From a virus: a DNA stretch of 25,162 nt. The translations under genes were made by a program, and so were the position numbers. The DNA is taken from IMG/VR virus record IMGVR_UViG_3300031565_003193, positions 1 through 25,162 of that record; one strand, given 5' to 3'. Shown in pieces: positions 2,597 to 24,282 of the stretch. Every line of letters begins with the position of its first letter. Within the stretch, counting starts at the first letter, position 1. The notes beneath the pieces are model-generated. The model did no database searches. It worked only from the letters and a program-made list of their open reading frames with translations, and was not told the origin of the DNA.

Positions 2597-4006
2597 TTAC
2601 AGCGAACCAGCCGCGCGACCGATGTTTTTGATCACGAGGTTCTTGGCGGGCGTATACATTTTCACGCCTCCCATGAGGATCTGACTCCAACGAATCGACG
2701 TGTCGATCGCAGCCAGCGGGATGCGAGTCATGGGCAGAAGCTGCGCCCATGAGAAGCTGCGCTGATTCTGCATCAGCACGAATCCCTGCGACGTGCCGGG
2801 GATATCCGCGTTCAGGTCGGTGACAACCTGCGTTGCGCCCGTGCGCGCGATGCGAACCATCATGCGCGCCGTACCAGCCGCGCCGCCTGGGGTGCTGCGG
2901 TAGATTTCGTAGAACGTGGGAGCCTGCCCGTTGTCCTGAATCGTGAATGTCACGCCGTCGCCAGCGACCAACGCAACACCAGCAGATACGACCGGCGCGC
3001 TCAGACCGAAGCGGTTGCCCGCGACCACCTGATAGATGTACGTGCCTGCGTCACCCGCGATGAACTGCGAGGCAGGGTTCGCGCCAGCAGCCGGTGCGAC
3101 GATGATCGACGGTGCGTTGGGGCGGCGATCGGTCTTGCCGACGCCGGTCGCGGGCACGTCTGGTCCTTCTTGGATGAAAACGTGATCGTGCAAGTTGATC
3201 TTGCCGTGTTGGCCTTGAAACGCCGTGACGGTCGCGCCAAGCACGCCTGGTGCGGGAGCAATCTGGAAGCGCTGCCGGTCGTACACTTGCTTGCTCAGAT
3301 CCGAGAACGCGCCGGTCGAGAAGTACGCGTCCGTCGCCATGCCGAAGTTGTCGCGGATACGGAGCAGCATGTCGTTCAGGCGATCTTCGTTCAGCGATGC
3401 GCCGCGCAAGTCGACCACGTTGGCGGGTGCGCCGTCGCTGATCAGCTTGAAGAGCCCGTCGAACTGCTCGGGGATCATGGTGCTGTCACCGAAGAACAGC
3501 GCGTTCTCGCAGTTCTTCAGAAGCTCCATCGTCTTGTTCATCGTCTCAAGCGCAATGACAGATCCCGCGCTCGATCGGATAGTGTTCGCCTGCATCGTAA
3601 CTCGCCCGGTTACGCCGAGATATTTTATTAACATCGTCACGCGTTGATAGGTCGAGTCCTCTTCTTCTGGAAGGTCTCCCTCTCCAACGAAGCCGAGATT
3701 GAAGCGCCGCGTGCCGCCCTTGCCGTACGAGATCAAGCGATTAAATTCTTCGACGGTGTTCGTTGCAGGAACCTTGGCGATGCTCTTGAAGAGCTTGATC
3801 TCGTCCATCTCGAAAGTCAGATTCTTCATCTGACTTTCAAGTGATTCCGTTCGCAAAGGAAATCCAACGCCAGCGGCGACGCCGGGATCGTTGACGTCCG
3901 ATCCGGCGACAAGCGCCTTGCGCAGTTCCGCAACGTCGTCAGGGTTCGCGGTTCCGTATCCGCTGTAGTCTCGGTAGTCTTGGGCAGAAACAAAGTTGCC
4001 TAGCAT
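2597..4006 (-). CDS. Major capsid protein, HK97 fold, with inserted Ig/FN3-like domain (469 aa)
   Basis: This 469-residue protein forms the icosahedral shell. The N-terminal region (about 1-80) is helical and may be scaffold-like or a delta region. The central part has typical HK97-capsid features: an E-loop-like segment rich in Glu/Gly (about 95-125, FVGEGDLPEEEDS), a long helix (about 140-170, VIALETMNKTMELLKNCENALFFGD), IPEQFDGL, and the closing P-domain strands near the C-terminus (about 415-469). Residues about 296-405 (from PNAPS through AGTYIYQVVAGNRFG and FYEIYRSTPGG to VTDLNADIPG) look like an immunoglobulin or fibronectin-III-like insertion, probably exposed on the capsid surface. 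The start ATG has a clear GGAGAT ribosome site. The gene follows protease and scaffold genes and precedes a partial terminator. Confidence in the capsid assignment is high; the boundaries of the inserted domain are approximate. Confidence 0.9.
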   Translation of the reverse strand: MLGNFVSAQDYRDYSGYGTANPDDVAELRKALVAGSDVNDPGVAAGVGFPLRTESLESQMKNLTFEMDEIKLFKSIAKVPATNTVEEFNRLISYGKGGTRRFNLGFVGEGDLPEEEDSTYQRVTMLIKYLGVTGRVTMQANTIRSSAGSVIALETMNKTMELLKNCENALFFGDSTMIPEQFDGLFKLISDGAPANVVDLRGASLNEDRLNDMLLRIRDNFGMATDAYFSTGAFSDLSKQVYDRQRFQIAPAPGVLGATVTAFQGQHGKINLHDHVFIQEGPDVPATGVGKTDRRPNAPSIIVAPAAGANPASQFIAGDAGTYIYQVVAGNRFGLSAPVVSAGVALVAGDGVTFTIQDNGQAPTFYEIYRSTPGGAAGTARMMVRIARTGATQVVTDLNADIPGTSQGFVLMQNQRSFSWAQLLPMTRIPLAAIDTSIRWSQILMGGVKMYTPAKNLVIKNIGRAAGSL

Positions 4007-4996: not shown

Positions 4997-5734
4997 CTAC
5001 AGTTCAGTCGCGGGGTAATGTTTCGCTGCATATCCGACCACGCGTTCTGCGAGTCGTACGGAAAGTTTCGGGTGGACCATGCGGAGAAAATGCACGGCTG
5101 CGCTCTTGCGCATTTTGCGCTGCTTGCGCTTCTTGGGCATGCGCGGCCCAGCGTTCGCAATGCCCTCCAGCGCCTCTGGCTCCAGCGCCGCTGCGCTGCC
5201 TGCCTCGCCACTGGGCGTGCCTACCGACAGGCTCTTCGCCAGCACGTCCAGCGACGTCTGCGTGTTGACCGGGCAACGCGTGATTGCGACTTCGCGGACC
5301 ACTGCCTTGCGAACCTTGCTCGGGTCGCGTGGGTCACGCTCGATAATGCCGCCCTCTACCGAGAAGCCGAGTCGACGCCCACTGCCGCCCTTCGCCAGAC
5401 CCTCTGCAATGCCCCACAGCTTGTCGGCCCGTGGGTTGCTACCTTCCGGCAGTAGCTCGCCCTCTACGTACCAGCCCGCGTGCCCGTCCGCGAGTGTGTC
5501 GAGTCGCGCCGCAGTCGGATACCCGACAAGCGAGTCAGAATCGCCAGAGTGATTGTCGTTGAACCAACCCTTTGCGAGAAAGTGACTGAAGTCCAAACCC
5601 TTTTGGATCAGTGTCTCGCCTTGGCGATCCATGTGATCGGTCGAAACGTATCCGCCGATGAAACGGCCAGACCGTCCATCGATCTTGGACTTCGACAGCG
5701 CGTCACACTCAATCTCGAAAGCGAAGTTGGGCAT
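4997..5734 (-). CDS. Prohead maturation protease, serine (HK97/U35-type) (245 aa)
   Basis: This is a caudoviral prohead protease that trims scaffold and capsid during head maturation. The sequence shows the family pattern: an N-terminal strand (IDGRSGRFIGGYVSTDHMDRQGE), a catalytic-type histidine at 62 in FNDNHSGD, a serine at 125 in GFSVEG, and the late strand VVREVAITRCPVN (about 146-157). The basic tail (MPKKRKQRKMRK) is probably removed or binds scaffold. I chose ATG 5732-5734 because the protein then begins MPNFAFEIEC as family members do, and because the upstream in-frame ATG at 5815 overlaps the -10 box of a predicted promoter and would force translation through a strong hairpin. No Shine-Dalgarno precedes this ATG; it comes directly after the hairpin's U-rich tail. 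Scaffold and capsid genes follow. Confidence 0.85.
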   Translation of the reverse strand: MPNFAFEIECDALSKSKIDGRSGRFIGGYVSTDHMDRQGETLIQKGLDFSHFLAKGWFNDNHSGDSDSLVGYPTAARLDTLADGHAGWYVEGELLPEGSNPRADKLWGIAEGLAKGGSGRRLGFSVEGGIIERDPRDPSKVRKAVVREVAITRCPVNTQTSLDVLAKSLSVGTPSGEAGSAAALEPEALEGIANAGPRMPKKRKQRKMRKSAAVHFLRMVHPKLSVRLAERVVGYAAKHYPATEL

Positions 5735-5780
5735 AAAATCAAAAAGGGACACGCCTGCACTAGCGGTGCAAGCATGTCCC
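5735..5780 (-). terminator. Rho-independent-terminator-like hairpin in the leader of the capsid operon
   Basis: On the minus strand, bases 5780 to 5766 pair with 5760 to 5746 as a 15-base-pair stem with two G-U wobbles and a five-base loop (5761-5765). TTTTTGATTTT follows immediately, then the protease ATG. The opposite strand lacks a T run after the hairpin, so it is directional. It looks like an intrinsic terminator and would either end transcripts from the accessory genes or attenuate transcripts from the promoter at 5814-5843. Confidence 0.75.
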
Positions 5781-5813
5781 TCTCTCTGCAACGCAGAACG
5801 GACCAGCAACGCC

Positions 5814-5843
5814 ATAATGGAACGGCGAACCGCGCACTGTCAA
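5814..5843 (-). promoter_or_regulatory. Sigma-70-type promoter with palindromic operator-like -35 region
   Basis: The minus strand carries TTGACA, a perfect -35 hexamer (5843-5838), an 18-base spacer, and CATTAT (5819-5814), four of six matches to TATAAT. The -35 box is the exact centre of a perfect inverted repeat with seven-base arms (5831-5837 and 5844-5850, CGCGCAC/GTGCGCG), as expected for a repressor or activator site. It lies in a 140-base non-coding gap (5735-5874), the largest in the window. It points at the protease-scaffold-capsid genes and would start transcription near 5807, about 27 bases before the terminator-like hairpin. Promoter use is predicted, not shown. Confidence 0.6.
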
Positions 5844-6092: not shown

Positions 6093-6386
6093 TCAGACTT
6101 CAGGCAACACGACACCCAGCACTTGCCCGTAGTGCATCACGTCGTGCGGCATGGGCACGTCGTGCGTGATGCACGCGCGTATCGTGCACAGCCACATGCG
6201 CTTGATCTCTGCTTGGCTGTGCTTCTTAACCAGTTCGATCTGATTCACGCCGTCAGTCAGAAACTCCAACGCCTTGCGCGCAACGTGCGCGTTGGGCTGA
6301 TCGCAGAAATATCCGACGTCCAGCTTCGTGCCGGGCTCCATGTAGTTCGTGCCCAGCGCGTCCAAAACATCCGTCGTCCTGCTCAT
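6093..6386 (-). CDS. Unidentified small protein (97 aa)
   Basis: The ATG overlaps the stop of the giant helicase gene by four bases (ATGA), and the next gene starts two bases after this one stops, so it is translationally coupled on both sides. The protein is soluble and mixed alpha/beta, with a helical middle (NAHVARKALEFLTDGVNQIELVKKHSQAEIKRMWLC) and a histidine/methionine-rich end (ACITHDVPMPHDVMHYG). It has three cysteines, not paired as a zinc site. I do not recognise a family. Tight coupling to the giant protein suggests a partner or chaperone, but nothing in the sequence proves this. Confidence 0.6.
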   Translation of the reverse strand: MSRTTDVLDALGTNYMEPGTKLDVGYFCDQPNAHVARKALEFLTDGVNQIELVKKHSQAEIKRMWLCTIRACITHDVPMPHDVMHYGQVLGVVLPEV

Positions 6387-9300
6387 CGCATCCCTCCAAC
6401 GTGAACCACGAACCGCCTCGCGTATCGCGCCGACTTGGCAACCAGTTCTTGCGCGTAGTGCACCGATTCATCCAGCATGCGATCCGCAAGCGGATCATCG
6501 TTTTTATTCAGCGTGGACGTTGTGCGTGCGCTGGCAACGCTCGCAGCCACGAAGTCATAATCCGTTGTCTCGGGCTGCGCGTTCTGCGCGATGTTCAGGA
6601 ACGCTTCGACGGCAGTCATTTTCGCACGGCTCTGCATCAGTTGCGAACGCTCTGCATTGCACGGCGATTCCATACTGTACTCGCCCGTCTGCACGGTCAC
6701 TTTCTTGCCCTTCTTTTTGCCTGCCACCGGGATCGTGATCTCTTCTGTAATGGGGATATCGACTGAGGTAGTGAAGCGCTTCACTTCAACCAAGAAGCGG
6801 CGGTCCTGCATCATCTTTCGCTCAAACGGCGAGAGGTGCTGCTGAATGATAGTGTTCACCACGTCGCTCTGTTGCACCGCTTCAGGTGGGATATACATGC
6901 GTTTGAGTTGCTGAAGGATGCGATTCCTAGTGGCACCATCGCCCGCCGCAGCAATCGCTTTCAAGCGTTCGCGCTCTTCCGGGTCGCCCCAGTAGCCGTG
7001 CGCTTTCAGATCAGCAAGCGTCGACTCTTGCAGACCCTGTATCCGCTCAAGTGAGCGCTTCGCAAAGTACGCCTCGATCAGTTGGTCCGGTGCGCCTTCG
7101 CCAAGTTCATCTAACTTCTTGCGGTCGCCTGGGTCCAACGTGTCGAGTGCATCGTTGATCGCGGCAAGCGCCGTCGTGTGATCGTAGTCCTTGATCGACG
7201 CGCCTTTTTTCTCTTCGTTGGCGCGAATGATTGCGTCGATCTTGTCTACGATCGGCTTGGCTTCACGCGACGTCGCAGCGGGCAACATGCGCGCGGCGCG
7301 CGTGATGCGCTGCCACTCATCTAGCGGCGAGAAAAGAGAGTCGTACATCGCCAAGTGCGCAGCGGGCCAATTCAAACCTACGTTCGCTGCATCCGACGCG
7401 CACATGAATTGCGTGTTGTTGAACACGTACTGCTGTTTATCCGACAGCGGCACAGTAGCCACCCAATACGGCTTCAGCAGACCGCGCAGTTCCGATTCAT
7501 GGCCTTTCATCGTCGTGCCGCTAGAGGTGCGGATAAGGCGCTCCAAGTCCTTCACACGTTTGCTAGTCTTCGCATCCAACGCGCTTTCGTAAACGTAGTT
7601 GGGCACCACAGTACCCTTCGGGCCAGCAACGCCCATAACACGCATGGGCACCTCCAACTCAAACGACTCTTTTTTACCCTTCGCCTTGTCGTGCTTGAGA
7701 TCCAACACAACGTCCGTGCGGAACGCTGCCGCAATGTTCTTGCGTTCGCTGCGGCCCCACCCCTCGGCAATGACACCAAGTCCAGGCGGCTTGCCGGTGG
7801 TGCCGTACAGCGTGCGGTGCACGAACATGCTCACGCCAGTGTCCTTGCCGAACTTGTCCTGCTTGTGCCGGAAGATTTCGCTGTTCAGGTTGCGCTCACC
7901 CAGCGTCGCGCCCTTGCCCATGTACGTCACAAAGTATTTTTTCGGCGTTTGCTTGCGGTCGCCTTCGCCGGATACGTCCGCGTTGCCCAGCGCTTCGTTG
8001 ACGTCTTGGAAACCCATTTGCCGCAGCTTGGCTTCCATCGTGCGCATGGATGAACCAATGCGGTTGCCGAACAGAATGAACTGCGTGTCGTTGCCGCCAG
8101 CGCCCGTGTGCTTCGCCAAGTTGTTCTTGATCCAACCTTCCAACGCATCCGTCTTCGCGTTGTTATGCGTGACCACTGCGTCGTACTGCGCTCGCTCGTG
8201 CCTACGCTCAAGACCACGTTGGATCGTGTGCTTTTCGTGACCGACCTTGGGTGCTTGATTACGAACGCCCTTGCCCTCATCCCACAGCTTAGGCTTCTTG
8301 CGTTCCTCGCCAGTATCCGGGTTCCAAATCCTGTCGTTGTCTTCCGGGTGCTCAGTCCAACCGGCAGCCTTCAATTGCTTGACTGTTTTCTTGTCGTCGC
8401 TGTCGCCAACGTCTTCGCCCTCTTCGCCAGACGTGTCCATGCGCCCGGTGTGATCCCAGTCAGACGACGCATAGAACATGCCCTTGGCTTTGGCTGTCGA
8501 GTCGCGCACGAACAGCGTGCCGTTGGGAACAACGCCAATGTGTTCGTGCCCATGCTCGTCTGTGAACTTGTATGGGATCGGTTCGATCACGCCGCCAGTT
8601 TCCGCCTGCGTGCCGCGCGCGATCATGCCCTCGGGACCGTAGTCCTGATTCAGAACCTTATCCGTCCACTTCTGCCCAGTCACTGTGGTGTACGTGCGCT
8701 CCTTGATCTGCTTCAGAATCGTTGGGTCGATCTTCGTGCCTGCAAGTGTCGAGTAGTCTACGCCAAACAAACGCTCAGAGTATTTTTGCAGCGCCTCAAA
8801 ATATCCGCCGTGGATTTTCTCGTCAGCCACGTCCTGAATAGACGGCCACTTGCCGTTCCACCCAGTTTTCTTGTCCATGATTTCTTCATAGCTGGGCAAC
8901 TTGAATGTGCGCGGCACTGTGGTGATCGTCACCTCACCGCGCTTATTCGTGAGCGCAACGGACGCGTCGTATTGCAATTCCTCGCTTGCGTCTGGGGCTT
9001 TGTACGCCGCGCAGTTCGCGATGCCACGCGCGCGTGCAACAGACGCCTTCGCCTCTTCGCTCAGTAGCTCTGTTTCATCCAACCCAAGGCTCGCGCTCGA
9101 TTCAAGCGAGGTGCGATCCTCGTCTGACATTTGCGCCATCGCAGCGCGGTACATCACCGCCTGCATGCCGGTCATGTGCGCGGGCTGGTTTTCGTCCAGC
9201 AACACCGCTGGCATGTTCTGGCCTTTGACGTCCGTGGTGTTTTTCACGTCGAAGTATTGAAACAGATAGCGTGCCAGCTTGCCCGCACGCATCGGATTCA

Positions 9301-12300
9301 AATCCAACTTGCGCGGATTCTTCACGCCCAACGCACGCTGCGTTGCACTCGCGACCAGATACTCGTTTTCAAACTGATCTTCGGTGCCGAGATCAACAGC
9401 GCCCGCCGTGATCAGACGCAGCAAGCGAGGCACCGTGTGCAGCGTGTTATTGACCGGCGTGCCTGTCATAGCCAGGAACAGCTTCATGTGCGGGTTCCAC
9501 CGCTCGACAGCTTTAGATACTTCGTTGTCGTTGGCGATCTTGTGCGCTTCGTCAACCACCATGCCGTCGAACAGACCAGTCGCGAGCAACGCTTCAGAGT
9601 GATCTCTGAAATACTCGTACGGGCAAACCAGTTCGTTGTTTGTGTCGTTGAACGGATCCCACATACCAGGACGCTTCTCTATTTGATCCTTCCAATGCTG
9701 AATCACTTTCTTGCGGAACGCCTCGTCAGTGTCCTTTGCACCGCGCGGCGGCAGCTTGGGTAGCTGCTGTGCGCCTGCAAGCGTCGCTGCGCCTGCAAGC
9801 GTAGGAACGTATCCGGCCCGTTGCTTGAATTCTTGAAACCAGTTCTCGGCAGTGTTCAGCGGCACTACAATGACCGTTTTCTTCGACGTGCGGTTGGGGT
9901 GCGGTGCTCCGTTGCCGTCCACCAAGTTGCGCATCATTGCGGACGCCATGATCGCAAGACCCGTCTTGCCTGTACCCATGAAGTGCGCAGCCATCATGCG
10001 CCCGCCGTTGTTTGCCAGTTTCTGCAAGGCTGTTATCCGGTGCTCGCCCGGCTGGAACCCGTCGTCGTCTGCGCGCATGCCGCGCAGCAGCCCGTCTGGG
10101 TTGATGTTGCCGTTAGGCTGGATGAAGTCCTCCGTCTTCGCGATGTTCTTGCGCCCGACTTGCTCGGACACACTGCGTTCAGCGACCATCGCGATATCGA
10201 GCATCGCCCGCACGCGATCCTCCATCATAAATCCGCCAAGTGCTTTTCGCAGTGCCGGTAGGTCGGATATGTTGATCCCGATCGGCGCGTCGTCTGCGTC
10301 CTGATCAGGATCGAGCGCGGGCTCGTACACGCCCTCCATTTGGAGGATGCGGTCACGCGTCATAGATCCGTCTTTAGGCAGCTTGATCCTGATTACGCCC
10401 GACCCTTCCTCGATAGCCGACCCTGTGACCACTTCGTCTGCGTACAGAAGTACGTGGCTCTGCAACGGCTCCACAAACCTACGCCGCACGTCCTTTTTGC
10501 CAGTCGCCGGAATGATGCCAGCTTCGCGCGGCGTCACTGCGTCAACGCGCAGCAGCACTTGTTTGATGCCCGCGCCTTGCCCTGCTTCGGGCATCACAGT
10601 CCAACCGTCCTTCGCTCGCTTGATCACGCGAGCAAGTATCCGCTTGTCGCTGCCGGGGTAAAGAATCCACCCGATCACACCGGGTTTGATCGGCACTTTC
10701 TTTTTTGCTTCGCCGCGACGATCGATCACACGCGGCAAACGGATCTCGTTATTCGCGTCGAGCAGTTCGTCAATGCGGATACTGGACTTGCCCAGTTGCC
10801 TTGCCCAGTAGTCGCCAACGACTTTCGGCGGTCCCTTGCCGTCCCACTCGACTTCGATATGCGCCAGACCGCGTTCCGCGCCTTGCTCTGCCTTGCCTGA
10901 AATAGACACCCATGTGCGGCGGGGCTCAGTGGCTTCTGCCGCCTTGCGCATCAGGTCAATCAAGTCGCCTGCGTTTTGAATGTCTACGCGCCCGCCTGGA
11001 TTCAGCAGCGACGCCAACACAGGGTCCATGATCTGCCCACGCCCGTAGCGATGGTTCTCGGCAAGGATCGACGCGCCAGTGCAGCCGCCGATCTGCTTCG
11101 CCAACTTGTGCGGGTCAGTCGGCATATCCTCCGTCAACACGGTCCAACGCCAGTTGCCGTTGCCATCCGGCAACTTAATTTTGTCGCCAGTCGCAAACGC
11201 GTTCGACGCGTTCACCCAAATTTTGGTCCACGTTCCATCAGGGTTGCGTTGCTCGTACAACTTCGCCGTCAGCACGGGCTCATGCTTCCCCGTGACCGGA
11301 TCATAGAACGTCTGCGCCATGCTCTTGCCGTCGACAGTCTCGCGCGCCTGCATCGTCTGTCGTTCAGGCGGCGCTAGTCGGATACCGTTGAATTTGAACG
11401 TGCCCGACTTCGCCATAAACTCTTCGGGCGAAATTTCGACAGGCGTCCATTCGTGGCGCTCTTGGATCGCATCCTCGCCCTTCGCGTGCAGCTTCGCCAC
11501 GCGTCTGCGCTCAAACTCTAACGTGCCTGGTATCTTCGCGCGCCCTTCCGGCGTGAGGTGCAAGCCAGCAGCCATTTGCTCATCAGTCGCGTTGCCGAGA
11601 TTGCCGCCTAGCGCATTGAAAATCTTGCGCCCAAGGTTCGTTTTTCCGCCCTCCCAGAGTTTGCCTTTTTTGTCGTACAGCTTCGTGTACGCAGCAATCG
11701 GATCGTCGCCCAACTCCGCGACGAACTTCTCGATCTTCGCGTCGCCCTGTCCGAGAAACAGAGTCGCCTGATCGGAGTCCAGCAGGTTGCCTTTTTCGTC
11801 GTAGATTTCCTTCATGTACTCGCGCGATCGAAACTTATTGAAGAGGCTGCCCTCGTAACGAGGCAACTGCGTCACTGGGTCGATCGTCGCGGGCATGCGG
11901 TCCCAGCCAGCCTCTTCGTCCTTGCTGGCAGGCCCAACACGCATCATCACCGTGCGACCGTTGACGGTCATTGTGTAGAACTGATCTTTGTCGCTGTAGT
12001 ATTGGCCCGCTGTAGATGCAGGTGATTCGTGCCTCGCACGATGCAGCAGCTTCGACACGGGCGTGACGGGCGCAGCGTTCCACCAGCGCAACTCTTCGTC
12101 CGGTGTCGCCAGCATTTCGGCCAACGGGCGCAACTCATGCAGCACGTTCTCGCGCATCCACTCGTAATGCTCGGGCGCGACCATCGCAAGTTCCTTCGGG
12201 TGCGTGTGCGCGCACGCAAAGGTTTCTGCGAAGTCCTCTTCGTATTTACTGTCTGGGCCACTTCTGGGATTGCCGACTTGCGCGTAGTTCGACACGAACT

Positions 12301-13417
12301 TCTGTTCCGTATCCCGCATGCGTTTCCAGTCGTCCCACAGACCAGGCTGCTGAATCTCTATGATGAAATGCCGCGCATGACCGATTTCGTGGAGCACAAC
12401 CTTTTCGGTGCGAGTCAGCGACCCATTGAAATTCGGATCCCCGATCGGCACTGTGACAATGTTCTGCCCTACTTGGATCTCGCCGGTATTTGGACGGTAG
12501 AACGCAGCAGCCCCGTATTTTTCCAGATACTTTTCCGGGTCGTCACCGTCTCCGACCATCCAAAACTTCGTGACGCCATGCGCCTTGTTTCCCCAAGAAC
12601 GAGTAGTGGCACCCCCTGCTGACTCGCCGTGGTCTTCGCCGTCCTGATCCGCTTCGGCTCGCGCCAACACCGCTTCAGCGCGCTTCAGCGCAGCGGTTTG
12701 CGATGCCACTGATTCTTCTGCGGCACTCAAGGCACGCGCGATATCGTTGTTTTCGTCGGCGGTCCTGTCGCCAGCCGCGTTGAACGATTCTTTAGCCGTA
12801 TCTAACGCTTTCTTCGCAGCCTCCAGCGCAGCTTTGAAGTCCGTCACCTTTGCTTGCGCGCGTGCCACAGCAGCCGCCAACGCGACTTCTTCAACGGCTG
12901 TGCGCTTGCCTTTTTTCTTCTTGCCGCCTTTCCCCAAACCCACGATGCGCCGGGTTTCCTCCGACATGAGATTCACGGCGGCGAGGATGCGCGCGTTGGG
13001 CGAACGCGTGCCTTCGCCAGACGCTTTCTCGGATTCGATGAAGGGCGCGACGTTTGCCTTGTTCCACGCGTCGCCAACGATCACGTTCCCCTTCAGAGTC
13101 TCGCCGCCGAACGCCTCTGAGATTGCGGTTGCCGTCGCCTCCGCAGCAGTAATGTTCTTAGACTTCAGGTGCGGATATAGCTTCACCAGATCAGCGATGA
13201 GGTGGTGGACGTGCTTCGCGTCTGGGTCGATCGAATCTTTATGCGCCTCGCGTTTCAGATCATCGGCGTACCAATAGATCCACACCAGCTTGCCGCCGAC
13301 CATCGAACGCTCACGACGGATATACTTGTGCGCCGCAGCAGGCGTGCCTGTGCTGCGCGAGAATGCCTTCAACAGCGAACCGCCGTAAGCGCGTGTCAGT
13401 GGGATTACGAAGCGCAT
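6383..13417 (-). CDS. Giant polyvalent virion-type protein: zincin peptidase plus SNF2/DarB-like helicase (2344 aa)
   Basis: I chose ATG 13415-13417, not the longer in-frame start at 13474, because it follows the upstream stop as TGATCATG with GAAAGG in front. Order (this numbering): HKY..GGK..YWYADD motif near 29-52; helical coiled-coil region (about 170-260, KKKKGKR followed by Ala/Glu helices); zinc-peptidase motif HEIGH at 343-347 with EDFAETFA at about 394-401, the arrangement of lethal-factor-like (ATLF) gluzincins; several linker domains; then a superfamily 2 helicase with Walker A GTGKT at 1148-1152, DEAH at 1289-1292, TGTP at 1318-1321, and the second RecA-like lobe with NVGLNW (2012-2017) and QRITRAAR (2036-2043), separated by a very long insertion. 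P1 DarB and the phage polyvalent proteins share this logic: they travel in the capsid and protect incoming DNA. Injection is inferred from the family and from the head-gene neighbourhood. Confidence 0.8.
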   Translation of the reverse strand: MRFVIPLTRAYGGSLLKAFSRSTGTPAAAHKYIRRERSMVGGKLVWIYWYADDLKREAHKDSIDPDAKHVHHLIADLVKLYPHLKSKNITAAEATATAISEAFGGETLKGNVIVGDAWNKANVAPFIESEKASGEGTRSPNARILAAVNLMSEETRRIVGLGKGGKKKKGKRTAVEEVALAAAVARAQAKVTDFKAALEAAKKALDTAKESFNAAGDRTADENNDIARALSAAEESVASQTAALKRAEAVLARAEADQDGEDHGESAGGATTRSWGNKAHGVTKFWMVGDGDDPEKYLEKYGAAAFYRPNTGEIQVGQNIVTVPIGDPNFNGSLTRTEKVVLHEIGHARHFIIEIQQPGLWDDWKRMRDTEQKFVSNYAQVGNPRSGPDSKYEEDFAETFACAHTHPKELAMVAPEHYEWMRENVLHELRPLAEMLATPDEELRWWNAAPVTPVSKLLHRARHESPASTAGQYYSDKDQFYTMTVNGRTVMMRVGPASKDEEAGWDRMPATIDPVTQLPRYEGSLFNKFRSREYMKEIYDEKGNLLDSDQATLFLGQGDAKIEKFVAELGDDPIAAYTKLYDKKGKLWEGGKTNLGRKIFNALGGNLGNATDEQMAAGLHLTPEGRAKIPGTLEFERRRVAKLHAKGEDAIQERHEWTPVEISPEEFMAKSGTFKFNGIRLAPPERQTMQARETVDGKSMAQTFYDPVTGKHEPVLTAKLYEQRNPDGTWTKIWVNASNAFATGDKIKLPDGNGNWRWTVLTEDMPTDPHKLAKQIGGCTGASILAENHRYGRGQIMDPVLASLLNPGGRVDIQNAGDLIDLMRKAAEATEPRRTWVSISGKAEQGAERGLAHIEVEWDGKGPPKVVGDYWARQLGKSSIRIDELLDANNEIRLPRVIDRRGEAKKKVPIKPGVIGWILYPGSDKRILARVIKRAKDGWTVMPEAGQGAGIKQVLLRVDAVTPREAGIIPATGKKDVRRRFVEPLQSHVLLYADEVVTGSAIEEGSGVIRIKLPKDGSMTRDRILQMEGVYEPALDPDQDADDAPIGINISDLPALRKALGGFMMEDRVRAMLDIAMVAERSVSEQVGRKNIAKTEDFIQPNGNINPDGLLRGMRADDDGFQPGEHRITALQKLANNGGRMMAAHFMGTGKTGLAIMASAMMRNLVDGNGAPHPNRTSKKTVIVVPLNTAENWFQEFKQRAGYVPTLAGAATLAGAQQLPKLPPRGAKDTDEAFRKKVIQHWKDQIEKRPGMWDPFNDTNNELVCPYEYFRDHSEALLATGLFDGMVVDEAHKIANDNEVSKAVERWNPHMKLFLAMTGTPVNNTLHTVPRLLRLITAGAVDLGTEDQFENEYLVASATQRALGVKNPRKLDLNPMRAGKLARYLFQYFDVKNTTDVKGQNMPAVLLDENQPAHMTGMQAVMYRAAMAQMSDEDRTSLESSASLGLDETELLSEEAKASVARARGIANCAAYKAPDASEELQYDASVALTNKRGEVTITTVPRTFKLPSYEEIMDKKTGWNGKWPSIQDVADEKIHGGYFEALQKYSERLFGVDYSTLAGTKIDPTILKQIKERTYTTVTGQKWTDKVLNQDYGPEGMIARGTQAETGGVIEPIPYKFTDEHGHEHIGVVPNGTLFVRDSTAKAKGMFYASSDWDHTGRMDTSGEEGEDVGDSDDKKTVKQLKAAGWTEHPEDNDRIWNPDTGEERKKPKLWDEGKGVRNQAPKVGHEKHTIQRGLERRHERAQYDAVVTHNNAKTDALEGWIKNNLAKHTGAGGNDTQFILFGNRIGSSMRTMEAKLRQMGFQDVNEALGNADVSGEGDRKQTPKKYFVTYMGKGATLGERNLNSEIFRHKQDKFGKDTGVSMFVHRTLYGTTGKPPGLGVIAEGWGRSERKNIAAAFRTDVVLDLKHDKAKGKKESFELEVPMRVMGVAGPKGTVVPNYVYESALDAKTSKRVKDLERLIRTSSGTTMKGHESELRGLLKPYWVATVPLSDKQQYVFNNTQFMCASDAANVGLNWPAAHLAMYDSLFSPLDEWQRITRAARMLPAATSREAKPIVDKIDAIIRANEEKKGASIKDYDHTTALAAINDALDTLDPGDRKKLDELGEGAPDQLIEAYFAKRSLERIQGLQESTLADLKAHGYWGDPEERERLKAIAAAGDGATRNRILQQLKRMYIPPEAVQQSDVVNTIIQQHLSPFERKMMQDRRFLVEVKRFTTSVDIPITEEITIPVAGKKKGKKVTVQTGEYSMESPCNAERSQLMQSRAKMTAVEAFLNIAQNAQPETTDYDFVAASVASARTTSTLNKNDDPLADRMLDESVHYAQELVAKSARYARRFVVHVGGMR

Positions 13418-13419
13418 GA

Positions 13420-13752
13420 TCAACCTTTCGGCGGGTGTCCGCTCAACATGAACGGGTGATGCAGGGTATGACACGTTACGCGAAAGTGCTGCTCTGTGCC
13501 GGGAGCGAACGTGACCATCGCGTCGACAATGGCGTATCCGGCTGGCGGCGCGGCGGGCGGCGCGTCTAGCGCAGTTACCGGGTTTTGAAACTGCGCCAGC
13601 AAAGCGCGGCGCTCGACTTCGCTTGGCCCGTGCACTGGGTCTATGCCCTCAAACGTGATCAGTCCGTTTGGGTGCCACACGATATAGCACGCTGGCAACG
13701 GTGCGCCGATGCGCCGTCGCCTACCAAGAAAGTACGAAACCTTATCCGCCAT
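13420..13752 (-). CDS. Unidentified small protein between the two giant genes (110 aa)
   Basis: This 110-residue protein starts two bases after the stop of the sigma-domain gene and ends two bases before the start of the helicase gene, through identical TGATCATG junctions. It is beta-rich in its first third (ACYIVWHPNGLITFEGIDPVHG), then has a helix (PSEVERRALLAQFQN), an Ala/Pro linker (LDAPPAAPPAG) and a last beta-like segment ending in histidines (HFRVTCHTLHHPFM). No known motif is recognised. Co-translation with two probable capsid-cargo proteins makes an assembly or packaging partner plausible, but that is only context. Confidence 0.6.
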   Translation of the reverse strand: MADKVSYFLGRRRRIGAPLPACYIVWHPNGLITFEGIDPVHGPSEVERRALLAQFQNPVTALDAPPAAPPAGYAIVDAMVTFAPGTEQHFRVTCHTLHHPFMLSGHPPKG

Positions 13753-13754
13753 GA

Positions 13755-16700
13755 TCAGAGCCCCATGAGTTTAAGCACGTCCGAACGTGCCTCGGTTGGT
13801 GCAAGCGCCAGTGCATCGTCACTGCCCCACATGACTTGCGACAAGCGTGGGAACTTCTCAATTAGGTCGAGCACGTACATATCGGGAGCGACCATATCAG
13901 TTCCCGCATCACTCTTGAAGGTAGACCCAACAGCATTGCGCAAGTCGCGTGTGGTGCGCACGTTCACCAAGCGGTTCCTGCCAGTGTGCAGATCGGTCAT
14001 AATCATTTGCATCGGAGCGTACCTGCCTTGCGCGCCTGTCACGTCTGTGACAACGCCGGTTGCGTTAGCGAACCACTCACGCGAACGCGGTTGCTGCATC
14101 ACGCGCTCTTCTGCAATGTGCCGCGCAGCTTCGCGTCGACCGATCTGCGACACGCGCCGCCACTGCTCACGCGCATACTCGGCCTTGTGTGTATCCGACC
14201 CGGCGCGGTCGAGCAGCGTGCGGAACCGCATGCGCTCGCGTGCACGCCACTCGCGCACGTCCGCAGTCGTGACCTTGCGGCTGTCCGCTTCGATTCGTTG
14301 ACGCACAGTCAGTCCACCGCGCACAACTTCCATTGGGATACGAAGCCGGTCCTGCGCACGCGACACCGTAGTCTCTGCTTCTTCGCGCCCACGCAGTGCA
14401 GTGCGCACAATACCCAGCGCCTCTTCGGTAGCGTGGTCCAGCACGTCGTATGCGGCGCGTGAACTGAGTTTGCGAAGCTCGCCATCCGACCCAAGGCGGT
14501 GCACTTCCAGATCCTCTGCAATCGCGCGCGTCGACTGTGGATCGGTGCCAAGGCCAAGCCGCCGTCGCAGTAGCTCTGCGCCATCCAAGCGGTACTCCAT
14601 GCGTCCGATCGCGACGTGCATCTTTTGGACGCTGTGCAACGCAAACTCGATATCGTGCCGCACTTGGATCCTGTCGTGCTCGCTCATACCAACGCCAACG
14701 CCCGCACCGGGCAATACATCGGCGGTGCCGCCGAACCAATCCGACCCAGTGCTCTTGCGCTGCCCGTCGATAAACTCGGCAAGCTCGCGCGCCAACTCAA
14801 TCTTGCCGGGGTAGTCCTTGCCCGACACGATCTCGCCAGCCTTCAGGCTGTAGCGGTGCAACGGAATATCATCGTCTCTGCCCGTCTGTAGCCCGTCGTG
14901 CATATCGCGTTTCTTCACGTTCCACACGCGAGCGATTGCATCCTCGGATACGTCGCCGCCACCGCCCTCGCGGTTCGCTGCGCCGCGCGCAGCAAGAAAG
15001 CCAGGCAGCATGCGTGTGACTCGTTTCGGCAAACTCACGCCTCCCGCAAACTCCCGCGCGCCATGCAATCGAGCGTACTGGCTTCCAACGGTGATGATCG
15101 CAGCGCGCAAACTATATCCGCCAGTGTAATCGTCAATCGCATGCAGCGCGCCCTCCATCGCCGCCGACTGCATGTCCTCGCGCGATTCATTCGTCAGGCG
15201 CACGCCCACCTTCGCAGCCGCTCGCTTGGCGACGCTCTTGATCGTGCTGCCCAACTCCGACAGCAGCCGCACCTTGTCGGCGTCTGGCATCGCCAGCACC
15301 TCGTCTTCGACAGCGTGCGACACGCCGTCTGCGTCAGCGCGGTACAGCACGCGCAGCTTGCGCGGGTATGCGCCGTTCTCGGCACCGTGCAGCACCGTGC
15401 CGGGCTTCGCCGTGCTGCCTTCGTATACCGGCGTCTTCTCGCCAGCGCCGCCCCTCCAGCCGGTCGTACGCTTGCTGCCGCCGCCAACCGTAATGTCAGG
15501 CCCACGCACACCAGGCGCAGCCTTCTTTGGCATGCCGTGCTCGACTGGGTAAATGCGGTCGTGCTTCACCAGCACGGGATCGATGTTGGCGGGCGCGTTC
15601 ACGTCGCGCAGCGACGCCCACCCGGCGTCTGCATCGGGATCGACAATCTCGTACAGCTTCGCAGGCTGGCCCGCGATCTTTACCGGATGCTTCGACTTCG
15701 GATCGATGCCGCCGCGCGTCCAAGGATCGATCGTAATGCCGCCGCCCTCACGCCGCACGTAGTCCCAGTACGCAGGCGTCTTGTCGTACCGACCCGCCAC
15801 GAAGTCGGCTTCAGTCAGCACAGCAGCTTCGTGCACAGCATCATGCGCCGCACTTGGACTGCGCCCCATGTCGGGATACCAGTAGTCCCAGCCGTCAGCA
15901 GTCTGCTTGTGGTAGCCGCCTTTCTTGCTGCCAGGGATCGGGAAGAATCCAGCAGGCACATGCGCTGTCGCGGACTTGCGCAGAATGGTGAGCCTCGGAA
16001 AGCGCATATCCGACTTCGCGACCTTGCCAAACACATGCGCCAACATCGTCAACGCGTTGATGCTCTGTTGCTGTTCGTCACGTTCGTCCGTGTGCCGCGC
16101 CGCAGACATAGCAGCAGAGATCAACTTGATCGGCATAGACACGAGTCTGTTCGCTGCTAACGACACAGCGTCTGCATGTATCTCTTGACGGATATCTTCG
16201 GCAGACGGCGGATCCTTCATGCCCTTCATTTCGCGAGCGACAAACTCCGCGCACACGTCGATCATGCGATCGACCTTTTCTTGCGGAGGGTTTTTGCCAA
16301 GCGCGTCCTTAAGCTCGTACAGCCCGACACCCACGGTGTAATCAGTGCCGTAGACAGTCTTGCCTGTGCTGTCGTGCCCAACAGACGCATGCCTTGTTTT
16401 CAGCCCAACGCTAGCTGCCAGCGGAGCCGCCACTTCTTCATAGTTGGAATCGGGACCGTACTCGACCGCAGCACGCTCTATCTTCGCAGGCACTGGTAGC
16501 GATGCCTTCGCCGCGCTCGCTTGCACAGCAGGCTTCGCAGCAGGTCCGTCCGCAGCTTTTATTTTGGCGACCATCGCATGCGCGTACGCACGCGCAGCCT
16601 CCAGCGTCTTATGCTGGATTGTACCGCCGACCGTGAATCCAAGATCCGTGTCGTGCAGCATCGAGCTATATCCGCGCGGCCCGTTGTCGAAAATCCGAAC

Positions 16701-17180
16701 CTCAGAGTCTTCTGTCGCTCGGATAACCTCGATAGGCTTTGCGCGCGGCGGTTCCTTCGCCCACTCGGGAACAGGCTTCGCAGTGGGCTTCGCCGCACTC
16801 GCATGAACAGCAGGCTTACGCTCATCCTCTGGTACAAACGTCCCAGCAGAATTAGCCCTGTGCCAACCCGCGCCCCACTCATCATAGAGCGCGATGAAGG
16901 CTTTCGTATTGCCCTTGTACTCGCTCACCAACTCGTTTTGAAAAGTAGCGTCTTGCCGCGCTATCGCCATTTTACCGGCGTTGAACGCAGCCTCGCCTAG
17001 TTGGCGTGCGCGTTGCGCGTGCTCTGCCGATATAGCAGGCGTCTTCTTCGCCGCGTGCACGTCGTCTGCGTACTCGTAAATGTATCCGCCCTTGCCGTCC
17101 GCGCGGCGCGACTTGTACTTGTGCCCCGCGCGCATGCCGCCGCGTGCTTTGATCAGATCGCGTGTTTGGTAGATCGCCAT
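13755..17180 (-). CDS. Large multidomain phage protein with sigma-70-like regions 2, 3 and 4 (1141 aa)
   Basis: An N-terminal HKY..GGYIYEYADD motif (about 20-40) is followed by Ala/Pro/Lys-rich linkers and small folded segments. A second copy of the motif (KKGGYHKQTADGWDYWYPD) lies at about 419-437. Residues about 664-725 (ESREDMQSAAMEGALHAIDD through QYARLHGA to SLPKRVTRML) match the pattern of sigma-70 region 2. Residues about 743-765 (VSEDAIARVWNVKKRDMHDGL) resemble the region 3 helix-turn-helix. Residues about 864-917 (RLDGAELLRRRLGLG, then TRAIAEDLEV, then LSSRAAYDVLDHA) match the region 4 helix-turn-helix. The C-terminal 200 residues are helical then mixed. The likely role is an RNA-polymerase-binding or promoter-binding module inside a capsid-cargo protein. 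The alternative is a non-transcriptional DNA-binding role. The gene follows an 82-base gap full of inverted repeats. Confidence 0.7.
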   Translation of the reverse strand: MAIYQTRDLIKARGGMRAGHKYKSRRADGKGGYIYEYADDVHAAKKTPAISAEHAQRARQLGEAAFNAGKMAIARQDATFQNELVSEYKGNTKAFIALYDEWGAGWHRANSAGTFVPEDERKPAVHASAAKPTAKPVPEWAKEPPRAKPIEVIRATEDSEVRIFDNGPRGYSSMLHDTDLGFTVGGTIQHKTLEAARAYAHAMVAKIKAADGPAAKPAVQASAAKASLPVPAKIERAAVEYGPDSNYEEVAAPLAASVGLKTRHASVGHDSTGKTVYGTDYTVGVGLYELKDALGKNPPQEKVDRMIDVCAEFVAREMKGMKDPPSAEDIRQEIHADAVSLAANRLVSMPIKLISAAMSAARHTDERDEQQQSINALTMLAHVFGKVAKSDMRFPRLTILRKSATAHVPAGFFPIPGSKKGGYHKQTADGWDYWYPDMGRSPSAAHDAVHEAAVLTEADFVAGRYDKTPAYWDYVRREGGGITIDPWTRGGIDPKSKHPVKIAGQPAKLYEIVDPDADAGWASLRDVNAPANIDPVLVKHDRIYPVEHGMPKKAAPGVRGPDITVGGGSKRTTGWRGGAGEKTPVYEGSTAKPGTVLHGAENGAYPRKLRVLYRADADGVSHAVEDEVLAMPDADKVRLLSELGSTIKSVAKRAAAKVGVRLTNESREDMQSAAMEGALHAIDDYTGGYSLRAAIITVGSQYARLHGAREFAGGVSLPKRVTRMLPGFLAARGAANREGGGGDVSEDAIARVWNVKKRDMHDGLQTGRDDDIPLHRYSLKAGEIVSGKDYPGKIELARELAEFIDGQRKSTGSDWFGGTADVLPGAGVGVGMSEHDRIQVRHDIEFALHSVQKMHVAIGRMEYRLDGAELLRRRLGLGTDPQSTRAIAEDLEVHRLGSDGELRKLSSRAAYDVLDHATEEALGIVRTALRGREEAETTVSRAQDRLRIPMEVVRGGLTVRQRIEADSRKVTTADVREWRARERMRFRTLLDRAGSDTHKAEYAREQWRRVSQIGRREAARHIAEERVMQQPRSREWFANATGVVTDVTGAQGRYAPMQMIMTDLHTGRNRLVNVRTTRDLRNAVGSTFKSDAGTDMVAPDMYVLDLIEKFPRLSQVMWGSDDALALAPTEARSDVLKLMGL

Positions 17181-17692: not shown

Positions 17693-18118
17693 TCACTCAG
17701 TTGTCTCGACTCGCATTCCCAACATAGGCGCAGAGTCCTGCCCAAACACAAAACTCACGTCAGTGCCACGAATATCCGTCGCACCAAGTCGCAACGCTAG
17801 AACTGAATCGACCACAGCAGGATCGAACACTCTGCACGAATCAACGTCGAACCGCGCACCCTCTATTTCAGGCCATGTGTGAATAGCCGCATGCGACGTC
17901 GACAGCACCACCACAGCAGTCAGCCCGCCTTCGTCTACGTCTACGTCGTGCCCCATGCGCTTCAGTGTTTTGGGCACGTCGTAAATGTGCGTGCCCAGCG
18001 CAGTCATATCAATCGCAGCGATCAGCGCCGACATGCAATCGGATAGCAACCCTACGTTGCTAAGTTGCGCAGCAGGCGCACGAAACGTACCGGCGTATTT
18101 CGTACCTGATCGATACAT
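17693..18118 (-). CDS. S-adenosylmethionine decarboxylase-like (SpeD/SpeH family) pyruvoyl enzyme (141 aa)
   Basis: AdoMet decarboxylases make decarboxylated AdoMet for spermidine synthesis and cleave themselves at a serine to form the pyruvoyl group. Here the family core is intact: TSHAAIHTWPE at 74-84 and FDVDSCR at 90-96. Ser75 (self-cleavage), His80 (processing) and Cys95 (proton donor) have the same spacing (5 and 15 residues) as Ser63, His68 and Cys83 of the Thermotoga maritima enzyme. Thr74 replaces the usual Glu before the cleavage serine. The length is close to bacterial class 1b enzymes. The start is fixed by GGGAGGA eight bases before ATG 18116-18118. No spermidine synthase gene is in the window. 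Relatives of this family have switched to arginine or ornithine decarboxylation, so the substrate is open. Confidence 0.85.
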   Translation of the reverse strand: MYRSGTKYAGTFRAPAAQLSNVGLLSDCMSALIAAIDMTALGTHIYDVPKTLKRMGHDVDVDEGGLTAVVVLSTSHAAIHTWPEIEGARFDVDSCRVFDPAVVDSVLALRLGATDIRGTDVSFVFGQDSAPMLGMRVETTE

Positions 18119-18146
18119 GCGGCGGATCCTCCCACACGCTCGCAGG

Positions 18147-18857
18147 CTAGACAATACCAGCGGGCGACTGCGACGTTGCGTCCGCGATGAAATGCGTTTG
18201 CAGCGCAGCCAACACGCGCGGCCCCGCGTCGATCTTTTTGGCTGAAATGTTGCTGTGACAAACGTATCCGCTGAACGAACGCAGTTCGCTTAGCGTCAGC
18301 AACTCGCAGAACGGCGCACCTTGCGCGTCGGTTTGCACGCGCCGCGCAACGCTTGGCACCGCCGTGCTCATGGCGTCCACCAACTCTAGCAACGCGGTGT
18401 ACTGTGCCGGTCGGAAGTCCAGCAGCTTTCGATTCGCGCCGTGTATGCGCGCCGTGTACTTCTCACGATCCCTGCCACGCCACAGCGCCTTCGGGTTCAT
18501 AGGGGATACGCCGCTGCCAACGATCTCGATTCCCCACGAGAACCCGTTCACGCGGCCCGCGTCTGCCGTATCGCAAACCAAAGGATCAGCGAACTGCCAC
18601 ACCGTGCCGTCACCGCCGATCGCAAACTCGATTCCAAGTCCGCGCTTCACTAGCGTCCGAAACATCGTATCCGGTTCGTTCTCTGCGCCCGTCCAATGCA
18701 GCACGGCCAGCGTCAACTTCTGCACGCGCGCTTTGTTCGCGCCCATGCCCGGTTTGAACTGTAGCCCGTGATCGTCCCACGTCACCACGCGTGACGTGGC
18801 AAGCGCATACGGCATGCCACCCACGATGATACCGGGGCTTGACGTCGCGATCTTCAT
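18147..18857 (-). CDS. Endolysin: N-acetylmuramoyl-L-alanine amidase (Amidase_2/PGRP type) (236 aa)
   Basis: This enzyme cuts the amide bond between muramic acid and the peptide stem of peptidoglycan to release progeny. Visible family features are the first zinc histidine in TLAVLHWTG (H54), the strand IEFAIGGDGTVWQFADP (76-92), WGIEIVG (108-114) and the second zinc histidine in YVCHSNISAKKIDAGP (H201), with D210 a plausible third ligand. There is no signal peptide and no cell-wall-binding domain, so export needs a holin. An N-terminal extension of about 45 residues precedes the catalytic core, and the last 20 residues are polar. The ATG overlaps the upstream 41-aa gene by three bases. A SpeD-like gene follows after 28 bases. 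Confidence 0.9.
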   Translation of the reverse strand: MKIATSSPGIIVGGMPYALATSRVVTWDDHGLQFKPGMGANKARVQKLTLAVLHWTGAENEPDTMFRTLVKRGLGIEFAIGGDGTVWQFADPLVCDTADAGRVNGFSWGIEIVGSGVSPMNPKALWRGRDREKYTARIHGANRKLLDFRPAQYTALLELVDAMSTAVPSVARRVQTDAQGAPFCELLTLSELRSFSGYVCHSNISAKKIDAGPRVLAALQTHFIADATSQSPAGIV

Positions 18858-22200: not shown

Positions 22201-24282
22201 TCACAGTTTCGCGTGGTCGCGCCGCACCGCGTCCGCTTTGTCTCGCGCTTGTTTGAACGGCTCGCCGGGACGTATGGGGCGATCGTTGCGTGGTCGGAAT
22301 ATCTCTCTGTACGCGTCGTGCAGCATCGCGAACGCGAACGGGTGCTTTGTCATTAGCCGCATGCGGTCGTAGAGATACAGCCGCGTTAGCTCCGCTGCGT
22401 TCTCGATCGGGTTGGTGCTCGCGTACTTCGTGCAAAAGCCTTCGCCCCTGCTCTTCGCGTACAGCTTCGCTTGCCATGCGCGCACGGGTTCGACGCCGCC
22501 CAGTCGGTACATGAGCCACACGTTCAGGCTGTGCCCCAGTTCGTGACGCACAACGGCTTCGACGCGATCAAGCGGTATCGTGATCGCGAGCCTGATCTCG
22601 TTGCCAGTCCAGTAGCCCAAGTCGTGATCGTCCAACGCGTTGCCCACGCGCGGTTGATCCTCGCAGATCAGAGTCACGCCTACGCGCTTGTCGAATATCG
22701 CTTTCGGCGTCTCTGCAATCACACGGTCGATGATCGCTTTCTTGCGCGGGTCGCCTATGTGCACTGCGCAGCCTGTATCCGGTGACGTGCCTGCAAACGT
22801 CAGCAGCACACCACCGGCTTTGCGCAAGTCGCCGGGAAGCAGCGCGGCTCGCAGCATGCCAAGCGGCACAATGTCGCCGTCGTCATTCAGCCCCCAGCCG
22901 TGCGGTATGTGGATCAGTTCGCAGCTACACCACGGGTGCACTGGCCCGATCACAGGCTTCCACGAAGCGCGACGCACGCCCACGTTCGTACCGTTCGCCG
23001 TCAACGCGGATAACGGAAACACGCGCGGCTTGCTACCAGGCCCAGCCGTTAGATGCAGGCGCACGCAATCATCGCACGCACGCGGTGACGGCAACTTGTA
23101 GACCATGATCTGTTTTGGGTCGCCTTCGCGTGACACCAGCCCAGCGCTGATCCCAGCCTGCGATGCAGACTGCGTTTCGGTTGCTGCGATGCGCCCAAAG
23201 TCGCGCGACCAATCTTTTGTTTTGTGGCCCAGCTTGCTTGCTACTTCGCGCCACGCGTCACGCCTCGCAATGCTGTCGACAACCTCATCACGGATATCTT
23301 GCTCGTACGCGGCTTGCAGTGCTGCGTCAGCTTCAATCGCAATCGTACTGAAGTCGTCTGCAATGCGGTTGCCCAGCCCGACAATCTCATTCGCTGCGTG
23401 ATGCTCTGCCCATGCACGCGCCGCCTCTTGCTGCGCCGTCAGCGGGAACGATGCTGCCACTTCGTGCGTCACGCGCACACTAAACGGACCCGTATCCGGT
23501 TCGTCTTCGCCGGGCATGCCTAGCACACCGGGCATTGCGTTGCCTGCATGCGCTGGGATCGGGTGCCGGTGTTCGTGCACGGTGAACGGGTCGGCTGTCG
23601 TGTCTGCCGCCACGGGTTGCCTGCGTAGCGTGCGCCGCACCGCAGCCGCCGCTACGCCCGCTGCGCCGATGCCAGCCGCCACTACGCCCACCCCCAGCGC
23701 TGCCAGCCCCTGTGCAGCCGGTAGCGTCAACGTCTTGGCCCTTGCTCGCAACAGCGGGTCACGGCCCAGCAGCACCCCGTAGTTGTAGGCGTCCGCAATC
23801 ACGCGTGCCGCCTCGCTCGCAGTCTCGCCATGCTGCGCCACAAACGAGTAAGCGAGATCGCGCGGTAGCACTCCCTTGTCGATCAAGCGTTGCACCGTCT
23901 CCGCACTCACCACACCAGGCCCGATCATCGTGGCGATAAATGCCAAGTGCGCATCACCGATCAGAGTGCGTATGTGCTCCATGTGCTCTGGTGGGATCAA
24001 CGGCTTCGTCGCCGGATGTTCGTCAACGGCTTTGCGCAGCGTGTCTATGGCGTGGTGCTCTGCATGCGCGCGGATACGGTTCACAAGCATATCCAAGTGT
24101 CTCTGGTACGCCACCGTGAGCACTTCGCAGTTTTGCTCCATCGCCAAGTAGTGTCGGAACGTGCGTGCTGCGCCTCGCAGCGGCTCCGCTTTCAGCAGTA
24201 CGTGTTCGCCCACGATGGCTTGCGCCACGTCCAACGGATGCATGTCTGCCGGTGCTGTGTACGAGACTCGCGGCTTCACCAT
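22201..24282 (-). CDS. Minor head protein (Mu F/SPP1 gp7 type) fused to an ATLF-like zinc peptidase domain (693 aa)
   Basis: Helical N-terminal half (about 1-180), then a Gly/Ala-rich hydrophobic stretch (188-216) able to form a membrane-active helix, then helical linkers. Residues about 355-460 carry the head-morphogenesis signature: DWSRDFGRIAATETQSASQAG, then C403-D-D-C406 and H449-P-W-C452-S-C454, the cysteine/histidine set of Mu F-like and SPP1 gp7-like minor head proteins, which act with the portal and can enter the cell. The last 190 residues hold a metallopeptidase motif HELGH (580-584) with YASTNPIENAAELT (about 620-633), the HExxH plus distal Glu layout of lethal-factor-like gluzincins. 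The ATG overlaps the methyltransferase stop. It could cleave a host target after injection or act in head maturation. Fusion to a peptidase is uncommon as far as I know. Confidence 0.8.
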   Translation of the reverse strand: MVKPRVSYTAPADMHPLDVAQAIVGEHVLLKAEPLRGAARTFRHYLAMEQNCEVLTVAYQRHLDMLVNRIRAHAEHHAIDTLRKAVDEHPATKPLIPPEHMEHIRTLIGDAHLAFIATMIGPGVVSAETVQRLIDKGVLPRDLAYSFVAQHGETASEAARVIADAYNYGVLLGRDPLLRARAKTLTLPAAQGLAALGVGVVAAGIGAAGVAAAAVRRTLRRQPVAADTTADPFTVHEHRHPIPAHAGNAMPGVLGMPGEDEPDTGPFSVRVTHEVAASFPLTAQQEAARAWAEHHAANEIVGLGNRIADDFSTIAIEADAALQAAYEQDIRDEVVDSIARRDAWREVASKLGHKTKDWSRDFGRIAATETQSASQAGISAGLVSREGDPKQIMVYKLPSPRACDDCVRLHLTAGPGSKPRVFPLSALTANGTNVGVRRASWKPVIGPVHPWCSCELIHIPHGWGLNDDGDIVPLGMLRAALLPGDLRKAGGVLLTFAGTSPDTGCAVHIGDPRKKAIIDRVIAETPKAIFDKRVGVTLICEDQPRVGNALDDHDLGYWTGNEIRLAITIPLDRVEAVVRHELGHSLNVWLMYRLGGVEPVRAWQAKLYAKSRGEGFCTKYASTNPIENAAELTRLYLYDRMRLMTKHPFAFAMLHDAYREIFRPRNDRPIRPGEPFKQARDKADAVRRDHAKL

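Follow-up and report, generated by a model that had tools for sequence, protein, structure and literature searches.

The window analysed here is the entire record IMGVR_UViG_3300031565_003193 (25,162 bases), in which every recognised gene lies on the minus strand. An open reading frame with an ATG start at 13755..17180 (minus strand) encodes a 1141-aa protein, P0001, which, together with its relatives, is predicted to be a polyvalent protein with a sigma-like core. Its N-terminal 400 residues gave zero matches in Pfam and PHROG. A short N-terminal motif, HKYKSRRADGKGGYIYEYADD (residues 19-40, 17061..17126), recurs in further large proteins encoded by related phages. The conserved core opens with an inter-domain motif, PAGFFPIPGSKKGGYHKQTADGWDYWYPD (residues 407-437, 15870..15962), and contains a sigma-70 region 2-like domain (residues 629-711, 15048..15296; profiles, AlphaFold2 and Foldseek), a region 3-like domain (residues 719-761, 14898..15026; profiles and AlphaFold2), an expanded conserved linker from region 3 to region 4 (residues 768-833, 14682..14879), and a region 4-like domain with a predicted beta-hairpin insert (residues 834-928, 14397..14681). 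The C-terminal domain (residues 965-1141, 13758..14288) had no known match, and its conservation is limited to near relatives. All of these features are on the minus strand.

Both short motifs recur elsewhere. Motifs of the HKYKSRRADGKGGYIYEYADD type are found many-fold in polyvalent proteins of 1413 aa and 1750 aa in one related phage (G008:C1:43094-52823), and a similar motif lies near the start of the SNF2 giant described below. The ~30-residue motif at 15870-15962 (PPGxGWxPIPGGKKGGYRKRxxxGWEYWYPD) was seen in 35 ORFs, a few of which may be duplicate fragments, with up to 3 copies per protein (e.g., L050:3266-8221, L061, L054 and L060). Copies of it separate the InPase, SAM-lyase and sigma domains of L050, as might be expected of a linker, targeting or processing tag.

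Relatives of P0001 were reached via the capsid gene (the capsid protein in the window has ~33% identity to its counterparts in cultured phages of the SPO1 type), from which longer IMG/VR contigs were identified and whole records searched. This yielded 15 relatives in IMG/VR, so that the family numbers at least 16 members, and the sigma-like core is embedded in proteins of 700-1650 aa. The relative in G003 shares 39% identity with P0001 over 751 residues and, within the sigma stretch (residues 601-960), 41% over 357 residues (E=3e-73), and those in G009 and G010 share 30-33% over about 830 residues. Further relatives were found in L043, L045 and L046, and in a distant clade (L047-L052, L056, L065, L072 and L074). 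No relative turned up when bacterial genome contigs were scanned twice, and tblastn of two distant members against phage records gave nothing for L056 and weak matches for L048 (best E 0.05).

The earlier note had described a multidomain protein among head genes, and this setting proved to be conserved. The window encodes a MuF-like minor head protein (22201..24282), a 2363-aa partner polyvalent protein combining a zincin motif (HEIGHARH) with an SNF2 ATPase (6383..13474), a head maturation protease (4997..5815) and a major capsid protein of the SPO1/SU10 type (2597..4006), all on the minus strand, the last two providing operon context. In most relatives a MuF homologue is directly upstream of the sigma-like gene, and the order MuF, sigma-like protein, SNF2/zincin giant, protease, scaffold and capsid is kept where capsids are 40-73% identical. 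The SNF2 giant was present in 12 of 12 related records with a sigma-like gene, and 7 related records (including records of 104, 81 and 72 kb) had neither gene. Several of these 7 are short fragments, so this computed coupling rests mainly on the 12 records and the three long ones. In two more records the SNF2 giant is located at the contig edge and the sigma position is missing.

Other features of these genomes were also observed. The MuF-like protein (22201-24282) ends in a C-terminal HELGH metallopeptidase-like motif, identified by eye. An S-adenosylmethionine decarboxylase-like ORF lies at 17693-18154 and a DNA methylase at 24276-25130; with the SAM-lyase found in related cargo proteins (L043:141-4004 and L050:3266-8221), the former ORF suggests repeated targeting of SAM. 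Outside the head module, G009 and G010 carry a sigma-like gene whose product ends in a long tail of low complexity (L035:911-4863; L036:802-5048), conserved as a pair with a neighbour that by eye is a von Willebrand-type protein. The 104-kb G008, which is without SNF2 giant and sigma-like cargo, encodes a free-standing 181-aa ORF (G008:C1:58675-59124) that matches Sigma70 r2 and r4 above the cut-off.

Sigma-70 homology of the protein family

Taken alone, P0001 is at noise level. Single-sequence searches of Pfam, PHROGs and PDB, tblastn against 50,697 phage records and a peptide-pattern search of IMG/VR returned no match, and when P0001 was compared with a profile built from four E. coli sigma factors it scored -0.6 bits, a value equalled or exceeded by 120 of 1600 shuffled controls. 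Several relatives outscored every shuffle against the same profile. Because P0001 alone scores like shuffled sequence against sigma profiles, its sigma identity rests on its clear homology to these relatives.

Family profiles searched against PDB were well above noise. A four-sequence core profile matched FliA in the right place (E=0.03), with a coiled-coil match alongside. With 13 sequences, SigA was matched at 1.6e-6, the r2-r3 and r4 stretches were collinear in the SigA matches, and the best 13 matches were sigma factors throughout. A 16-sequence profile of the sigma stretch matched SigA at E=1.2e-8 (26 matches, just two of them non-sigma), and sigma factors made up 53 of the 54 matches of an r2-r3 profile. 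Direct alignment of the family with E. coli RpoD, RpoS, FliA and RpoH by hhalign extended over 194 columns (E=2.9e-10). Evidence independent of the alignments made in this analysis was provided by NCBIfam, where single relatives matched PRK05949 (1.1e-7) and cyanobacterial RpoD (9.4e-7), and 9 of the 16 family members matched TIGR02937. Matches of single relatives to Pfam Sigma70_r2/r4 and to the PHROG sigma family were weak.

Based on these profile alignments and on AlphaFold2 helices, regions 2, 3 and 4 occur in order and collinear with sigma-70, and residues of about 629-930 of P0001 are homologous to these regions, although highly diverged. The earlier note had discerned the same order by eye, placing the regions at residues 664-725, 743-765 and 864-917; the order is upheld at family level, and the limits shift to about 629-711, 719-761 and 834-928. 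Its suggested profile comparison succeeds with the family and fails with P0001 alone.

The predicted fold points in the same direction. An AlphaFold2 model of residues 629-767 (r2-r3) had a pLDDT of 85.6, with region 2 helices at 633-642, 644-658, 664-683 and 691-711 and a helix order equal to that of sigma regions 2 and 3. In a Foldseek search of PDB, 50 of 50 among the matches listed were sigma factors or sigma-RNA polymerase complexes, including entries RPSB and RPSD, which we take from their codes and lengths to be B. subtilis sigma-B and sigma-D. Region 2 of sigma-E (2map) superposes on the model at 2.6 A over 86 columns. Individual E-values were weak (0.13-1.6), which we attribute to the domain being small and helical. 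Phage sigma factors were among the named best matches in the Foldseek viral library. The whole core gave a more ambiguous result (best E 0.036), with outer-membrane and acyl-CoA dehydrogenase proteins interspersed at similar E-values and low probability; this ambiguity was resolved by searching with the isolated r2-r3 module.

A chance helical resemblance, with no relationship to sigma factors, would account for the lack of profile matches to P0001 alone, its shuffle-like score and Foldseek E-values that are not significant on their own. It does not account for the collinear r2-r3 and r4 matches to SigA and the E-value of the family profile, the hhalign result, the NCBIfam matches of single relatives, or the sigma factors named as best matches in two structure libraries. 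We consider it extremely improbable and reject it in view of the profiles, the fold searches and the shuffles of relatives.

Altered functional surfaces

To locate functional residues, the 16 members were mapped to sigma-70 numbering by hhalign. In sigma-70, core polymerase is bound in region 2.2 by D403 (which contacts the beta-prime clamp), Q406, E407, N409 and M413, and aromatics of regions 2.3/2.4 serve promoter melting. Across the family, an acidic residue occupies the D403 position in 15 of 16 members, G411 and an aromatic at the F419 position are present in all 16, F427 is kept in 15, and 13 have an aromatic at the W434 position, but W433 is kept in none and Q406, E407, N409 and M413 are mostly changed. 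P0001 is further altered, having lost both F427 and the W434 aromatic (F427 -> L691, A431 -> I695, W433 -> T697, W434 -> V698), and retains D669 as its sole main core-binding residue. Where sigma-70 has its finger (region 3.2), the linker joining regions 3 and 4 is enlarged and has invariant residues P773, G792 and G806. Together, the residue pattern and the finger segment suggest that the fold has been kept and the working surfaces altered, with P0001 the most strongly affected. Given its loss of the F427 and W434 equivalents, P0001 could be either a sigma factor in modified form or a mimic of one, and without several melting and core-binding residues it could act in inhibition or in a non-transcriptional DNA role.

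In view of these alterations, a mimic that blocks host transcription has to be taken seriously as a rival, particularly in the case of P0001. An injected module of this kind would bind core polymerase or promoters without opening DNA, displacing host sigma and shutting down host transcription. The replaced melting aromatics of P0001, a core-binding helix in which Q406, E407 and N409 are not conserved across the family, and the unrelated conserved segment in place of the sigma finger are all consistent with such a role. Nonetheless, most relatives retain F427 and the W434-position aromatic, region 4 has been retained although a pure blocker would not need it, and FliA likewise has Ala at the E407 position. 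On balance, we regard a mimic as unlikely.

The poor conservation of core-binding residues could also reflect a domain repurposed for DNA binding, which would pack, condense or protect phage DNA (e.g., in anti-restriction with its SNF2 partner) and make no contact with polymerase. The strict pairing with the SNF2/zincin giant fits such a role, as does the precedent of SNF2-type polyvalent proteins such as DarB, which counter restriction (PMC5512222). A single helix-turn-helix would suffice for this purpose, however, whereas regions 2, 3 and 4 are all present in order, and the acidic residue at the clamp-contacting D403 position is also hard to reconcile with it. A repurposed DNA-binding domain is rather unlikely in our estimation.

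A putative virion cargo and its place among known systems

The relatives join the sigma-like core to InPase, ART-PolyVal, GNAT, SAM-lyase and TMEM65-type domains, and proteins matched by the InPase end in tblastn are annotated as 'portal' and 'minor head'. Both InPase and ART are commonly found as modules in the polyvalent proteins of phages. Such proteins have been argued to be packaged in the virion and injected, and their InPase versions are fused to portal proteins (PMC5512222). As judged from sequence, P0001 belongs to this injected-cargo type. The polyvalent fusions and the position in the head operon make it more likely that P0001 is an injected virion protein, and we infer that members of its family are packaged, injected and bind RNA polymerase.

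The sigma factors of phages generally serve middle or late promoters. Together with the location of the gene in the late region, this would fit an ordinary late sigma factor, made late from the head operon, left unpackaged and serving late promoters only. The fusions to InPase, ART, GNAT and SAM-lyase instead point to polyvalent cargo, as does a linker motif common to other cargo proteins. Moreover, a late sigma factor is normally made before the late operon and not within it, and ordinary sigma-like genes occur elsewhere in some of these genomes. We consider a late sigma factor more doubtful still than a DNA-binding role. The presence of an ordinary sigma gene elsewhere in some phages of the group also counts against an injected sigma.

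Our preferred reading, to which we assign somewhat less than an even chance, is that P0001 is polyvalent cargo whose diverged sigma core is packaged, injected and redirects host polymerase to phage early promoters. P0001 would be made late as multidomain cargo, packaged in the head, and enter the cell with the DNA and together with the SNF2 giant. Its sigma module would then bind host core RNA polymerase in competition with host sigma and steer it to phage early promoters. Of the co-delivered components, InPase would clear pyrophosphate, the SNF2 motor would recycle polymerase or clear DNA, and ART and GNAT would modify host proteins. The whole would amount to a virion-borne kit for transcription takeover, the most economical interpretation of the locus. 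More generally, and with a shade more reserve, we propose that a lineage of tailed phages may pack into its heads and inject a sigma factor that is joined to pyrophosphatase or to enzymes modifying the host and accompanied by an SNF2 motor, thereby reprogramming host RNA polymerase before any phage gene expression. If true, this would account for the association of sigma with pyrophosphatase, RNA-polymerase-modifying enzymes and an SNF2 ATPase, and with its 16 or more members the family offers material for testing the idea of an injected sigma.

The P0001 family resembles sigma-70 factors of groups 1, 2 and 3 (SigA, RpoS, FliA) in having regions 2, 3 and 4 collinear, in its r2-r3 fold, and in keeping the D403 (acidic), G411, F419 and F427 positions in nearly all members. 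It differs in being embedded in far larger proteins, in the replacement of region 3.2, and in its mostly changed core-binding residues. Large size, multiple domains, a location among virion genes, the InPase, ART-PolyVal, GNAT and SAM-lyase modules of the relatives and an SNF2/zincin partner are shared with the phage polyvalent proteins of Iyer et al. 2017 (PMC5512222), but that paper has 0 occurrences of 'sigma'. A sigma-70 homologue as a module of such proteins is a new domain class for them. Head-packaged precedents that act once injected are known in T4 Alt, which acts on host RNA polymerase, and P1 DarA/DarB, which protect DNA (PMC5512222), although neither has a sigma domain. The ECF sigma of phiEco32/SU10 and T4 gp55 are also phage-encoded members of the sigma family, but are small, free-standing and made during infection. 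Particle proteomics detected the SU10 sigma factor by a single peptide (PMC4281155), and a survey of jumbo phages handled sigma factors as expressed genes. The earlier note knew of no characterised injected sigma factor, and in agreement with this we found none in the open-access literature searched.

The usual view is that a phage transcribed by the host polymerase initially needs host sigma together with early promoters resembling those of the host. If true, a virion-borne sigma would add a third strategy to the two already recognised, host-like promoters and polymerases carried by the phage (N4, phiKZ-type). The proposed likeness to the N4 virion RNA polymerase lies in the delivery of a transcription component with the DNA for early genes; N4, however, carries a complete polymerase, whereas the P0001 family would bring no more than a domain that gives the host polymerase its specificity.
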